Part shown: one piece after another, positions 9,971 through 61,632 of the stretch
Layout: the number at the start of each line of letters is the position of its first letter
Numbering within the stretch: the stretch's first letter is position 1
Assembly: GCA_017410245.1 (NCBI GenBank)
Contig: JAFQRE010000003.1
Span: forward strand, 1-64,000
Reading direction: 5' to 3'
DNA length: 64,000 nt
Origin: Bacteroidaceae bacterium
Lineage (GTDB): Bacteria > Bacteroidota > Bacteroidia > Bacteroidales > Barnesiellaceae_A
The notes under the pieces: generated by a model
The model's database searches: none
What the model was told of the DNA's origin: nothing
The model's input: only the letters and a program-made list of their open reading frames with translations
Made by a program: the position numbers and the translations under genes

Positions 9971-10177
9971 CTATGATAAGGGTCACACCGAAGGATGCGA
10001 TGAAACTCCGACTGACAGGATTTGAGTGCTTCCGCTCCTTTGTAATCCACCGTGCTAAGCATACTCCTGAGAGTTGTGGCCCGCCATTGGAACGCAAAGC
10101 TTGTCTCGGTATTTCATAAAATTTGATGAGTTTCCCAATCTACTTGAGTGCGACCCGATGTCTATCTCATCAATGTT
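9939..10177 (-). ncRNA. Free-standing structured RNA, probable 6S-like RNA (Bacteroidales-1 type)
   Basis: A roughly 240-nt transcription unit with its own strong promoter and intrinsic terminator but no reading frame. The minus strand folds into a long interrupted rod. The closing stem is GGGTCGCAC (10156-10148) with GTGTGACCC (9988-9980). Further in, GAAACTC pairs with GAGTTTC, CCGA/GAC with GTC/TCGG, and CGTTCC with GGAGCG; two small apical hairpins sit at the far end. Size, rod shape and central bulges recall 6S RNA, which binds RNA polymerase, and the Bacteroidales-1 family thought to be its local form. It lacks the landmarks of tmRNA, RNase P RNA and SRP RNA. The family name rests on memory of general features. 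Confidence 0.6.
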
Positions 10178-38618: not shown

Positions 38619-38655
38619 ATCCCCATTGCCACCACCGGCAGTGGGGATTTTTTTG
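38619..38655 (+). terminator. Terminator of the M13 peptidase gene
   Basis: ATCCCCATTGCC (38619-38630) pairs with GGCAGTGGGGAT (38637-38648) with one G-T pair, followed by seven T. A smaller GAGGCTGCAAAGCCTC hairpin precedes it. Confidence 0.87.
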
Positions 38656-38677: not shown

Positions 38678-38707
38678 TTGTTTCTTTTTGTTTATTTGAT
38701 ACCTTTG
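38678..38707 (+). promoter_or_regulatory. Promoter of leader RNA copy A
   Basis: TTG at 38678-38680, 19 bp, TACCTTTG at 38700-38707. The same -7 box with a 19-bp spacer drives copy B. Confidence 0.85.
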
Positions 38708-38709
38708 CG

Positions 38710-38964
38710 GTGATGAGGCACATTTCCTCATTGCTACAGCGGTAGGAGTATTTATTATCAAAGCGTTTTTGCTTTATCCTTAACAGAAATTCGCCAAAAT
38801 TTTAAACTACGGGATAATGCAGTCACAAAACGCCTATGCTTGCTTGTATCCACCCCGGCAAGGGGTGATGCTATATGGCAATGCGTGGGGTGGGCTGTTT
38901 ATTGTAGTTGGGCGTTTGGCGATGCCTCTGTTAGATAAACTGAACATCGTCCCACGCTTTTTTT
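38710..38964 (+). ncRNA. Duplicated structured leader RNA, copy A
   Basis: This untranslated stretch recurs at 60392-60645 with long identical blocks (31 nt at 38809-38839, 29 nt at 38878-38906, and two of about 19-20 nt). A 5' hairpin pairs 38709-38718 with 38726-38735; its sequence differs from copy B but pairing is kept by G-T and Watson-Crick changes. GGGATA (38811-38816) pairs with TATCC (38847-38851), CACCCC with GGGGTG (38851-38867), AAACGCC (38828-38834) with GGCGTTT (38911-38917) as a possible pseudoknot, and GGCGATG (38918-38924) with CATCGTC or GCGTGGG (38883-38889) with CCCACGC (38951-38957), then a T run. A 57-codon frame (38817-38990) is broken in copy B. Likely an attenuating leader. 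Confidence 0.75.
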
Positions 38965-39012
38965 ATATAACCACCTCAACGGGGATGTGAGAGGGGAAAA
39001 AACTATTTTATT

Positions 39013-41637
39013 ATGAAAAAAACATTACAAAAACTACTTGTCACGGTGGTATGTCTGCTGTGCAGTATCGGAGTCTATGCCTATGACTTTGAAGTTGATG
39101 GGATTTATTACAATATCCTAAACGAAACTGATAAAACTATTGAGGTTACTTATAAGGATACTGGATATAACTCTTACTCAGGTGATATTGTATTACAAGA
39201 AACTGTTTCTTATAATGACGAACTTTATTATATTGTAAAAATAGGTGATAGAGCTTTTAGTAAATGTGATGCTTTATATACGGTTACGTTACCAAATAAT
39301 GTTAGTAATTTAGGTATTGGCGTGTTTCACAACAGCAACAATTTAACTGAAATTCATGCATCAAATGGAGTATCAACCAATAGTTCTCAAATTTTTTATA
39401 ACTGCACAAGTTTAAAATCTGTTGTAATAGACAACAATACCACTATTATCAATGATGAAGTTTTTAGAGGTTGTTCTAGTCTAAACAAAATCACGATACC
39501 TCAAAATATTACTAATTTAGGAGAGTATGCAATAGCTGGATGTTCAGGATTGATTGAAATTAAAGTTGAAGCAATAAATCCTCCATATGCTGAATCAAAT
39601 ACATTTAATGTTATAGATAAATCTATCCCCGTATATGTACCGGCTGAGAGTGTAGAGGCTTACAAACAGGCTGAATATTGGAGTGAATTTACCAATATAG
39701 TAGCAATAGATGAAGATAATAATAGCTTGGTTGCTGAAAAAGTTGAGGTGGTAAAAGTCGATGACGTAATGAAACAAGATGAAATATCATTACCTATCTC
39801 GTTGATTAATACAACCGAAATAGCAGGCTTGCAATGCGATATATTCTTGCCAGATGGCTTGACACCTATAATGCAGGGTGATAAGTACGACATCGTATTG
39901 TCATCGCGCGCTGAGGGCTTTGACGTTACAGCCAAGCTCCGCAATGATGGTGCATTGCGTGTTGTTATTGTCAATACTGCTCTTGACCTTATCAGTGGAA
40001 ATGATGGTGAATTGTTTACTATCAAGTTGATGCCCAATGAGCAATATAGTACCGATGATCATATTGCTATCCGCAATATTGTAATGACGGGTAGTGACTA
40101 TGCCGAGTATGAAGCCTCGGATGTTGTTATCTCTTGTACAATTAAAGAGAGCATTACCGGCGATAGCAACTGTGATAAGAAGGTGAATGTTACCGACTTG
40201 TCGCAAATGGCAAACTATGTGGCCGGCAATGAGTTGGGAGTATTCGACGCTGACGGAGCGGATGCCAACCAAGACGGACAGGTAGACAGCGCGGATATTG
40301 ATACCGTGAGCGATGTTGTGGTGAAAGCCTCAAAAGCCGAAGCACAAAACAATACTGAAGTAACCGAAGCGACTGAAAACCGATTGGAAGCCGATGCGAT
40401 AGAGATTGTGAAAATGAATGGTGTGGTAGTTACTAATCCTATTTCATTGCCTATTGCCTTAACCAATACCGCTACGATAACCGCCATACAATGCGATATT
40501 ACAGTGCCCGCGGGTTTGACACTTGTAGAGAATGATGGTGTTGCCGATATTATCTTGTCGGAGCGATTGGGCGAGAGTCACGTCGTAAAGAGTGCTTGGC
40601 TTGACAATGGTGCACTGCGCGTGCTTATCTATTCGCCCACTGCTGAGGGTATTGAGGGCGAAAGCGGTACACTCTTTACCTTGCAGTTGCAACCCAATGA
40701 AAGCTACCAAGCCGATGCAACCATCGAGGTGAAGAATATTACCATAGCTTCTACCGATGCAGTAGAATACAACGCCATGCCGTTGAGCATATCTTGCACC
40801 GTGAAAGAGAGTTATAAGGGTGATGTCAATAGAGACGGCAAGGTAAACGTTACCGATGTTATAGTGACTATAGGCAAGGTGCTGAATGTATATGATGGTG
40901 AGTTTGACACTGTTGCAGCCGATATAGACCAAGACGGCGAGATAACCATTGTAGATGCCGTAGGTATAATTAACCTTGTACTGGATGAGGGCGATACTCC
41001 TTCGCAAGCCCGTATGCAAGATGAATATGCCCAAGGTGAGCTTACCATGCAAGACGTGAAGATGAGCCGAGGCGAAACCAAAGACCTCGTAATTGGCTTG
41101 ACAAACGAAGCACCTTACACAGCCTTCCAAATGGATGTAACACTTCCCGCGGGATTGAATATAGAGCATATAGCCCTGAGCGGTCGTGCCGATGGTCACA
41201 CTCTGCAATGGCAAGTCCAAGCCGATGGCAGTGTCCGTATAGTAGGTTATGCCCTCGACAATGCCGCAATTACAGGTAATGACGGCGCATTGCTAACGCT
41301 TACCGTAAGTAGCGACAGCCAATTTGAAACCGGCGAAGTGGTGGTAAGTAACGCCATCTTCAGTACCCGTCAATTGGTATCGCACCGCATGGAGCGTATG
41401 ACCGTGAAGGTAAGCAATATAACCAGCTTGAACGACGTAGTAACCGCTACCCGCATCTATGCTGCCGACCATAAGGTTGTGGTAGATAGCTCCGTAGCGC
41501 AAGAGGTAGCGATAAGCACTATAGACGGTATGGTGCAAAGAGTAGCCTTGCAAGCCGGACGCAACGAGATACCCTTGCAACAAGGTGTATACATCGTAGC
41601 TGTGGATGCCGAGGTGAAGAAAGTGGTGATAAGATAA
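39013..41637 (+). CDS. Surface protein: BspA-like leucine-rich repeats, three cohesin-like and two dockerin-like modules, T9SS sorting domain
   Basis: An 874-residue exported mosaic. After a signal peptide (1-23) come BspA/TpLRR repeats (about 55-225; IGDRAFSKCDALYTVTLPNNV, EVFRGCSSLNKITIPQNI). Then cohesin-like beta domains at about 240-375, 450-595 and 670-800 alternate with dockerin type I-like Ca-binding modules at about 378-440 (GDSNCDKKVNVTD ... DANQDGQVDSADI) and 598-665 (GDVNRDGKVNVTD ... DIDQDGEITIVDA). The tail (811-874, GVYIVAVDAEVKKVVIR) is T9SS-like. The repeat part up to about 39720 is clearly more AT-rich than the rest. The protein may bind host or food-particle surfaces; the internal cohesin/dockerin set could self-associate. 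Confidence 0.85.
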   Translation: MKKTLQKLLVTVVCLLCSIGVYAYDFEVDGIYYNILNETDKTIEVTYKDTGYNSYSGDIVLQETVSYNDELYYIVKIGDRAFSKCDALYTVTLPNNVSNLGIGVFHNSNNLTEIHASNGVSTNSSQIFYNCTSLKSVVIDNNTTIINDEVFRGCSSLNKITIPQNITNLGEYAIAGCSGLIEIKVEAINPPYAESNTFNVIDKSIPVYVPAESVEAYKQAEYWSEFTNIVAIDEDNNSLVAEKVEVVKVDDVMKQDEISLPISLINTTEIAGLQCDIFLPDGLTPIMQGDKYDIVLSSRAEGFDVTAKLRNDGALRVVIVNTALDLISGNDGELFTIKLMPNEQYSTDDHIAIRNIVMTGSDYAEYEASDVVISCTIKESITGDSNCDKKVNVTDLSQMANYVAGNELGVFDADGADANQDGQVDSADIDTVSDVVVKASKAEAQNNTEVTEATENRLEADAIEIVKMNGVVVTNPISLPIALTNTATITAIQCDITVPAGLTLVENDGVADIILSERLGESHVVKSAWLDNGALRVLIYSPTAEGIEGESGTLFTLQLQPNESYQADATIEVKNITIASTDAVEYNAMPLSISCTVKESYKGDVNRDGKVNVTDVIVTIGKVLNVYDGEFDTVAADIDQDGEITIVDAVGIINLVLDEGDTPSQARMQDEYAQGELTMQDVKMSRGETKDLVIGLTNEAPYTAFQMDVTLPAGLNIEHIALSGRADGHTLQWQVQADGSVRIVGYALDNAAITGNDGALLTLTVSSDSQFETGEVVVSNAIFSTRQLVSHRMERMTVKVSNITSLNDVVTATRIYAADHKVVVDSSVAQEVAISTIDGMVQRVALQAGRNEIPLQQGVYIVAVDAEVKKVVIR

Positions 41638-60323: not shown

Positions 60324-60359
60324 GTGTATATGCTCAACTAAAAAATAAATAAAAATACT

Positions 60360-60389
60360 TTGTTCTATTGTTTCTTATTTCTACCTTTG
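60360..60389 (+). promoter_or_regulatory. Promoter of leader RNA copy B
   Basis: TTG at 60360-60362, 19 bp, TACCTTTG at 60382-60389; same -7 box and spacing as for copy A. Confidence 0.85.
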
Positions 60390-60391
60390 TA

Positions 60392-60645
60392 GCTATGAGG
60401 TACATATCCTCATAGCTACAGAGGTAGTCTTTTTTATTAATAAAGCGTTTTTGCTTTATCCTTTTCACGAAATTCGCCAAAATTCAAAGTACGGGATAAT
60501 GCAGTCACAAAACGCCTATGCATGCGTGTATCCCCCGGTATGGGTGCTGATATAGTGCAATGCGTGGGGTGGGCTGTTTATTGTACTTAGGGCGTTTGGC
60601 GATGCCTCGTGAAAGATAAACTGAACATCGTCCACGCTTTTTTTA
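60392..60645 (+). ncRNA. Duplicated structured leader RNA, copy B
   Basis: Second copy of the leader at 38710-38964. The 5' hairpin is a perfect 11-bp stem (60390-60400 with 60408-60418) and covaries with copy A. The ATAAAGC/GCTTTAT hairpin, the 31-nt block (60491-60521), the 29-nt block (60557-60585), GGCGTTT (60591-60597) facing AAACGCC, and the 3' GCGTGG/CCACGC stem (60562-60567 with 60632-60637) with T run are kept. After the T run, ACCTC (60651-60655) and GAGGT (60668-60672) form a small hairpin just before the ATG at 60688. The reading frame open in copy A stops at 60555 here. The match to copy A continues into the first codons of the gene. Confidence 0.75.
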
Positions 60646-60687
60646 TTAATACCTCAATGGGGCGTGAGAGGTAAGAAAAATTGTATT

Positions 60688-61632
60688 ATGAAAAAAGGAT
60701 TTGAAAATTTTGCGTTTCTTTTAACGTTAGTTTTGTGTTTGGCCTTTGTGTCATGTGAGAAAGATGGTGATAAAATAAAAAATCAGTTTGTCGGTAAATG
60801 GCAAAGTAATCATTATAGTGGTGGAGTAGATTATTATACTTTTACTTCTGATGGTAAATATACCTGGGAGGGGCCAACATCATCATGGGGGACAGATTAT
60901 GGAATCTATACGTATAATTCCGAATTAAAAACACTTATCATTACATCGCAAAAGGGCAATCACCCTGAAGGACGCACAACCATTACCAATGTAATATTGG
61001 AAATTAATGACGAATATTTTATTATTTTGGATAATGATGGAGATAGTTACACTTATTTTAAGGTAGGAGATGTTAATAATAATAACAGTAGCAATATACA
61101 TAATAAGCATGAGTATGTTGATATGGGTTTATCGGTGAAGTGGGCTACTTGTAATGTGGGTGCAAAAACACCGGAAGATTATGGCTACTACTATGCATGG
61201 GGAGAAACTGAAACTAAAACTGAATACACAGAGGAGAACAGTATAACGCATGGCAAGGTTTTAGGTGATATCAGTGGAGATCCTATATATGATACGGCTC
61301 GAGCAAACTGGGGTGGCGATTGGCGAATGCCTACAATCTCTGAGATTATCGAATTGGTAGAAAATTGCAAATTTGAGTTTGTTACTCAAAATGGTGTGAA
61401 CGGATATAAAGTAATAAGTAATAAGAATGGAAATAATATTTTCTTGCCATGCGCTGGTGCTTATAATGAAGATTATGCTTTATATGGTGCTGGCGAGAAA
61501 TTCTTTATATGGAGTTCCTCTGTTTGTGATACAGATGATTTCTACGATACGAAGACCGCTCGTTGTTTGTCTAATGAAACATTTGTTACATTAAGATTTT
61601 ATGGCTTGACAGTTCGTCCTGTCTTTGATTAA
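60688..61632 (+). CDS. FISUMP-domain lipoprotein
   Basis: A 314-residue lipoprotein (MKKGFENFAFLLTLVLCLAF ... SCEK, lipobox Cys near residue 24). An N-terminal lipocalin-like beta domain (VGKWQSNHYSGGVDYYTFTSDGKYTWEG) is followed by a linker and, from about 145, a Fibrobacter succinogenes major paralogous domain: EYVDMGLSVKWATCNVGAKTPEDYGYYYAWGET, WGGDWRMPTISEIIELVE, and the end FYGLTVRPVFD. FISUMP domains share the C-type lectin fold and probably bind glycans or proteins on the cell surface. The gene is AT-rich compared with its neighbours, which hints at recent arrival. It is expressed from the copy B leader. Confidence 0.85.
   Translation: MKKGFENFAFLLTLVLCLAFVSCEKDGDKIKNQFVGKWQSNHYSGGVDYYTFTSDGKYTWEGPTSSWGTDYGIYTYNSELKTLIITSQKGNHPEGRTTITNVILEINDEYFIILDNDGDSYTYFKVGDVNNNNSSNIHNKHEYVDMGLSVKWATCNVGAKTPEDYGYYYAWGETETKTEYTEENSITHGKVLGDISGDPIYDTARANWGGDWRMPTISEIIELVENCKFEFVTQNGVNGYKVISNKNGNNIFLPCAGAYNEDYALYGAGEKFFIWSSSVCDTDDFYDTKTARCLSNETFVTLRFYGLTVRPVFD

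Follow-up and report, generated by a model that had tools for sequence, protein, structure and literature searches.

Two leaders of similar sequence in the window, by which we mean the whole 64,000-nucleotide stretch of Bacteroidaceae DNA analysed here, represent a kind of folded cis-regulatory leader RNA, roughly 280 bases long, whose family appears to be undescribed, and we posit, at a probability of roughly 0.6 and judging from sequence, that the family comprises new cis-acting transcription attenuators. Copies A (38678-39022) and B (60360-60696), both on the + strand as are all their features given below, share 292 of 348 positions (84% identity, E=4e-93, BLASTN) and precede mutually unrelated genes, as an earlier note on this DNA had described. 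The gene behind A (39013-41637, +) encodes a BspA protein with LRR_5 and Dockerin_1 domain matches and a weak DUF6383/T9SS-like tail, for which a search of virus contigs gave no match, and behind B lies a lipoprotein-like ORF (60688-61632, +) with a weak Lcl_C match only. The similarity begins at the -33 TTTG and stops in ATGAAAAAA, the start of both downstream genes, and both leaders thus span a Bacteroidales promoter through to a start codon; taken whole, copy B occupies 60359-60697, and covariance model R1 scores it at 160.8 bits, copy B being a seed member of that model. A separate terminator (38619-38648) ends the upstream M13 peptidase gene and divides it from copy A. Elsewhere in the window, positions 9975-10155 on the - strand match Rfam Bacteroidales-1 (E=2.7e-27), a suggested 6S-type RNA.

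Within the two copies, blocks of 32 nt (TACGGGATAATGCAGTCACAAAACGCCTATGC) and 29 nt (GCAATGCGTGGGGTGGGCTGTTTATTGTA) are identical, the first of which had been given as 31 nt and the second correctly. Each copy folds better than all of its 100 shuffled versions (z = -3.7 for A and -6.2 for B). The promoter of copy A consists of the -33 TTTG (38677) and a -7 box TACCTTTG (38700-38707), that of copy B lies at 60359 and 60382-60389, and a 5' hairpin follows near the expected transcription start (38707-38740 in A, 60388-60420 in B); promoter, hairpin and a stem with a T run are all present in copy A, as the earlier note had said. From A to B the hairpin changes G-T to A-T at 38709/38735, T-G to C-G at 38711/38733 and G-T to T-A at 38712/38732, exactly the compensatory differences that had been put forward as a sign of selection on RNA structure. 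The changes are real, but the hairpin on which that argument leaned is variable in sequence family-wide and proved to be less conserved than any other part of the element.

The leader is not confined to the two copies that the earlier note described. Covariance model R2, in which the loop pairing is modelled, places the element at six sites of the genome from which the window comes, and in a BLASTN search of 99 relatives every one of the eight other genomes in the genus gave a match. An exact pattern taken from two paired loops (TCGCCAA-N93-123-GGYGTTTGGCGATRCC) occurs in at least 120 stretches of GTDB species genomes, nearly all of them Bacteroidales among the matches listed, with Bacteroides fragilis, B. 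timonensis, Parabacteroides, Coprobacter, Barnesiella, Duncaniella, Odoribacter and Butyricimonas among the genera, and in 34 virus contigs of IMG/VR, one of which (L200) is a chance match with an R1 E value of 1.3. Model R1, built from 26 sequences with copy B in the seed and copy A outside it, recovers copy A at E=3.9e-39 and other non-seed members at E values down to 1e-9. Two of these members come from Lentisphaerae: L111 (E=1.5e-9), assigned by its record title, and L204 (E=6e-12), a virus contig assigned from a prepilin-like gene alone. As lower bounds, with about 10 candidates scored per genome, R1 matches at least 70 of 247 Bacteroidales genomes, as well as genomes of other classes, and R2 at least 31 in a sample of 247 genomes taken across the class. 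Counts per named genome range from 2 to 39, a few rows being one place matched on both strands, with 4 in B. fragilis, 10 in Butyricimonas synergistica, 21 in Parabacteroides sp. An277 and 39 in Odoribacter lunatus. Copies in B. fragilis Q1F2 (NZ_CP018937) lie at about 836,159-836,315, 4,592,638-4,592,804 and 5,119,623-5,119,791. A simple two-copy duplication is ruled out by these searches. With one leader as query, neither the INPHARED phage DNA nor the PLSDB plasmid DNA gave a match. Tandem RNA copies about 330 nt apart were seen in a single leader region of L109 (6509-6651 and 6839-6980) and on a P. distasonis contig (104392 and 104720), and one record titled as a Lachnoclostridium MAG, a Firmicute, holds a copy typical of Bacteroidales, so that this record is probably misnamed or misbinned.

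Comparison with known RNAs supports the earlier proposal of a new family. Rfam 15 at the gathering threshold has no match at copy A or B, a permissive search of copy A (E up to 10) returned nothing beyond chance, and no match fell on the RNA elements of eight loci with diverged members. In the openly available full-text papers searched we found neither a description of the leader nor its core sequence, and a keyword search of structured-RNA papers, including the 2010 Bacteroidetes motif list and a human-microbiome survey, found no recognisable description. The Rfam families Bacteroidales-1, Bacteroides-1, Bacteroid-trp and Flavo-1 (PMC2864571) are likewise structured RNAs of the same phylum, but none of them matches the element.

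The predicted RNA structure is strongly supported by covariation. A permutation test, in which the self-pairing of each helix is compared with pairing to partners taken from other sequences, was applied to 51 sequences of less than 80% identity. The highest values belong to P1 (TTAACAG 38780-38786 with CTGTTAG 38928-38934 in copy A; z=26), P2 (AACTAC 38805-38810 with GTAGTT 38904-38909, and 60487-60492/60583-60588 in copy B; z=20) and Pa (TTATCC 38774-38779 with GGATAA 38812-38817; z=10.9), followed by P4 (9.2), P5 (7.8) and P6 (6.6), to which we return below. Values are lower for the K1 stem (4.0), P0 (3.8), P3 (GCAGTC 38819-38824 with GGGCTG 38892-38897; 3.1, 85% paired in A3) and the hairpin H1 (AAAGC-GTTTTT-GCTTT, 38760-38775; 2.5), so that support is modest for P3 and P0 and weak for H1 family-wide; three control window pairs gave z of 0.3-1.0. 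A further hairpin, P7 (CACCTC/GAGAGG, 38972-38994), is seen in the genus and was rejected as a family-wide feature (z=1.4). Since a first MAFFT alignment misregisters P1 and P2, we relied on these anchor-based tests and on a model-fitted alignment of 75 sequences, in which pairing in P1 reaches 98.5%, every one of its seven pairs occurs as 4-6 pair types, and the covariation score is 0.576 versus 0.166 when shuffled and at most about 0.10 when slid. The permutation test matters here because a model-fitted alignment leans towards its own structure.

The RNA is pseudoknotted through pairing between the loops of two hairpins, K1 (38786-38803, loop TCGCCAAA at 38791-38798; loop 60474-60481 in copy B) and K2 (GGCGTTTGGCGATGCC at 38911-38926, loop TTTGGCGA at 38915-38922; 60591-60606 in copy B). 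The closing pair of K2 covaries, with counts of 57 C-G, 33 T-A, 2 T-G and no C-A. Because the search pattern fixes the K loops, their pairing was tested on members outside the pattern, and it is kept there through compensatory change in the loop pairs CCGCCAA/TTGGCGG, ATCGGCAAA/TTTGCCGAT, ACTGGTA/TACCAGT, TTCTCGCA/TGCGAGAA and TCTGGAC/GTCCAGA, of which some come from one scan that selects for such pairing and the others rest on model matches. The leaders of HTH genes have K loops wholly different in sequence. Judged by sequence, K1 and K2 may kiss, or they may stack with P1 and P2 into a single helix. Leaders whose loops read TTCGGCAA/TTGCCGAA form a variant that stands before related genes in three Bacteroides species (L300, L302 and L312). 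Pairing is retained as sequence diverges, even between Bacteroidota and Lentisphaerae, which speaks against a decayed gene or IS remnant; with the absence of Rfam matches and the many further, covarying copies, none of the three outcomes that the earlier note had named as refuting its proposal was obtained.

The inference of attenuation comes from the 3' half of the element, where a terminator-like stem P5 (GCGTGGG 38883-38889 with CCCACGC 38951-38957; 60562-60567/60632-60637 in copy B) encloses P4 (GTTTATT 38897-38903 with GATAAAC 38934-38940) and is followed by a U-run (38957-38966 in copy A, where CCCACGC and TTTTTTT together occupy 38951-38964; 60637-60646 in copy B). The 10-mer at the P5 3' end has at least six T in 38 of 51 members versus 9% of core 10-mers; in the other 13 of the 51 the U-run is weak or missing, which counts against an attenuator. 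Since the loop of the P4-P5 stem holds the 3' strands of P1, K and P2, core and terminator are interlocked. The 5' arm of the terminator, GCGTGGG, can also pair upstream with CTCATGC, CTCACGC and variants (z=6.7, 0 of 5000 permutations), and the predicted fold of copy A contains a candidate anti-terminator of this kind (CCTATGCTTGC 38833-38843 with GCAATGCGTGGG 38878-38889). Finally, helix P6 spans the U-run (CGTCCC 38948-38953 with GGGATG inside GGGGATG 38981-38987; 60629-60633/60659-60664 in copy B), with z=6.6, or 8.4 with tighter windows, and -0.6 for the control. In sequence, the leader combines the GC-rich stem, U-run and mutually exclusive alternative pairing expected of an intrinsic-terminator attenuator with a conserved structured 5'-leader domain joined to an expression platform, as in riboswitches. 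Reading the aligned leaders by eye, we saw no conserved short ORF that could encode a leader peptide.

In the sequence of events that we propose, transcription would start at the promoter close to the 5' hairpin, and the RNA would fold into an interlocked core of P1, the paired K1-K2 loops, P2 and Pa. P4-P5 and the U-run would form an intrinsic-terminator-like stem around the 3' strands of P1, K and P2, and pairing of its 5' arm with the CTCATGC/CTCACGC-type partner upstream would create the anti-terminator. Formation of the core, presumably governed by a ligand or protein signal, most likely sets the choice between termination before the gene and readthrough into it. After readthrough, the strand past the U-run would pair with the terminator 3' arm as P6 and hold the stem open, and P6 may in addition control how accessible the start codon is.

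The main rival is that the same strands act on translation, with P4-P5 near the start codon and P6 opening or closing the ribosome landing zone, and the U-rich stretch serving as a linker or S1-type landing site in place of a terminator tail. We consider this unlikely on balance, and it draws on several of the observations above. A same-strand ORF starts at a median of 95 nt past K2 (IQR 87-103) in 65 of 70 evaluable loci, a fixed distance that together with P6 suits control of translation, as does the weakness of the U-run in 13 of the 51 members; in short versions the stem ends 10-20 nt before the start codon, and about 10-15 nt before the ATG in L220 and L225, an arrangement that fits translation control too. 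Bacteroidetes are described as mostly without Shine-Dalgarno sites (PMC3155529), so that upstream structure could matter. Against this, the U-run is strongly enriched exactly at the 3' end of the stem, the alternative partner of the 5' arm fits classical attenuation, and in the window copies the ATG lies about 50 nt past the terminator-like stem.

Another proposal, which is compatible with attenuation and competes with it on the nature of the signal only, is that a protein docks on the RNA: either one that modifies RNA polymerase, by processive antitermination as proposed for EAR or as a NusG paralog of the UpxY type, or the small HTH protein. The signal would then be a protein and not a small molecule. 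Antitermination by UpxY operates at Bacteroides polysaccharide loci, and one B. fragilis copy of the leader heads a wza-wzc type operon. The small HTH gene is the largest single class of targets (10 of about 71 downstream ORFs), and each of the two HTH genes in the window's genome immediately follows a shortened form of the RNA (L219 and L220); across the Bacteroidales the RNA lies upstream in about 14 of the 31 HTH loci examined, and HTH proteins of this family may themselves take part in the control. Most targets are, however, single genes, no nearby NusG paralog was recognised in an informal look, and loop and helix sequences vary freely, so that recognition by a protein would have to depend on shape or on the few conserved stretches. 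We regard a docking site as improbable.

A free-standing, trans-acting small RNA that ends at the U-run, with the downstream gene incidental, would account for a promoter of its own and a terminator-like end, but it is very improbable because 65 of 70 loci have a start codon on the same strand at a constant spacing and because P6 uses sequence past the U-run, which extends the element beyond that point and argues against a plain small RNA. A duplicated promoter cassette, insertion-sequence remnant or decayed gene devoid of RNA function would explain a promoter and leader unit before unrelated genes, but can be practically discarded, because pairing is maintained by compensatory change across large divergence and the spacing of promoter and start codon is fixed, neither of which a mobile-element remnant free of structural constraint would show. 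The promoter itself is part of the unit: a TAnnTTTG box lies upstream in 70 of 74 non-redundant GTDB loci versus 15 of 74 in a control window, mostly 70-110 nt 5' of K1.

Transcription attenuation thus remains our preferred reading, and it has counterparts among known systems. Terminator-embedded-aptamer riboswitches such as HMP-PP/thiS (PMC6478431) also place a terminator-like stem, interlocked with a structured core, immediately ahead of the regulated gene, and use mutually exclusive pairing. The family differs from them in matching no riboswitch of Rfam 15, in having targets without a common metabolic theme and in pairing that runs past the U-run. The EAR (epsC motif) and JUMPstart antitermination RNAs (PMC2864571) are structured leaders too, and the B. 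fragilis copy before a polysaccharide export gene recalls them; unlike these, our family has no match to RF01735 or RF01707, mostly precedes single accessory genes and not long polysaccharide operons, and has a built-in alternative terminator pairing.

The earlier suggestion that the leader attenuates or gates exchangeable surface proteins is supported, with two refinements: attenuation is read from the alternative pairing and the U-run, and the targets extend beyond surface proteins. Among downstream ORFs of at least 150 aa, 26 of 39 look secreted versus 95 of 413 other ORFs at the same loci (Fisher p=5e-8, by a hydrophobicity heuristic and not SignalP). Beyond surface proteins and the HTH class, the targets include GTPases and DUF1266 proteins, one of the latter behind a loop-variant leader in B. 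fragilis. Odoribacter lunatus (L313-L338) encodes about 20 paralogous large secreted proteins, each with its own leader copy, and the single protein scanned matches an FGE-sulfatase domain; many of these leader copies lie at contig ends. On virus contigs the leader is mostly found before small lipoprotein-like or signal-peptide-like genes, and contigs L175-L208 of IMG/VR carry near-identical leaders before different genes of the small lipoprotein-like kind. Near-identical leaders before different genes, in the window and on virus contigs, support a single cis-acting leader family. In L189 (9450-10128) and L192 the leader lies on the strand opposite to its phage major head protein neighbours, a moron-like layout, and this orientation within a head-gene cluster implies a promoter of its own.

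We tentatively suggest, as a possibility that we think somewhat doubtful as a whole, that the family is an orphan switch class of the Bacteroidota, reaching Lentisphaerae and carried by phages, in which exchangeable genes for surface proteins and regulators and prophage morons, as a flexible set, are gated by one shared signal through an unusual two-sided attenuator, with a sensing core threaded through the terminator loop and a post-U-run strand that captures the terminator arm and locks readthrough. Such pairing of a strand across the U-run, if true, would be an unusual element of attenuation. The surfaces of gut Bacteroidota vary constantly, and few RNA controls for surface variation are known. 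The presence of the family in B. fragilis, Parabacteroides distasonis, Duncaniella muris and Odoribacter, and also in phages of this group, provides a candidate list of co-regulated genes, and with up to 39 matches per genome, outside Rfam, it makes the question of how accessory surface genes are activated directly testable.
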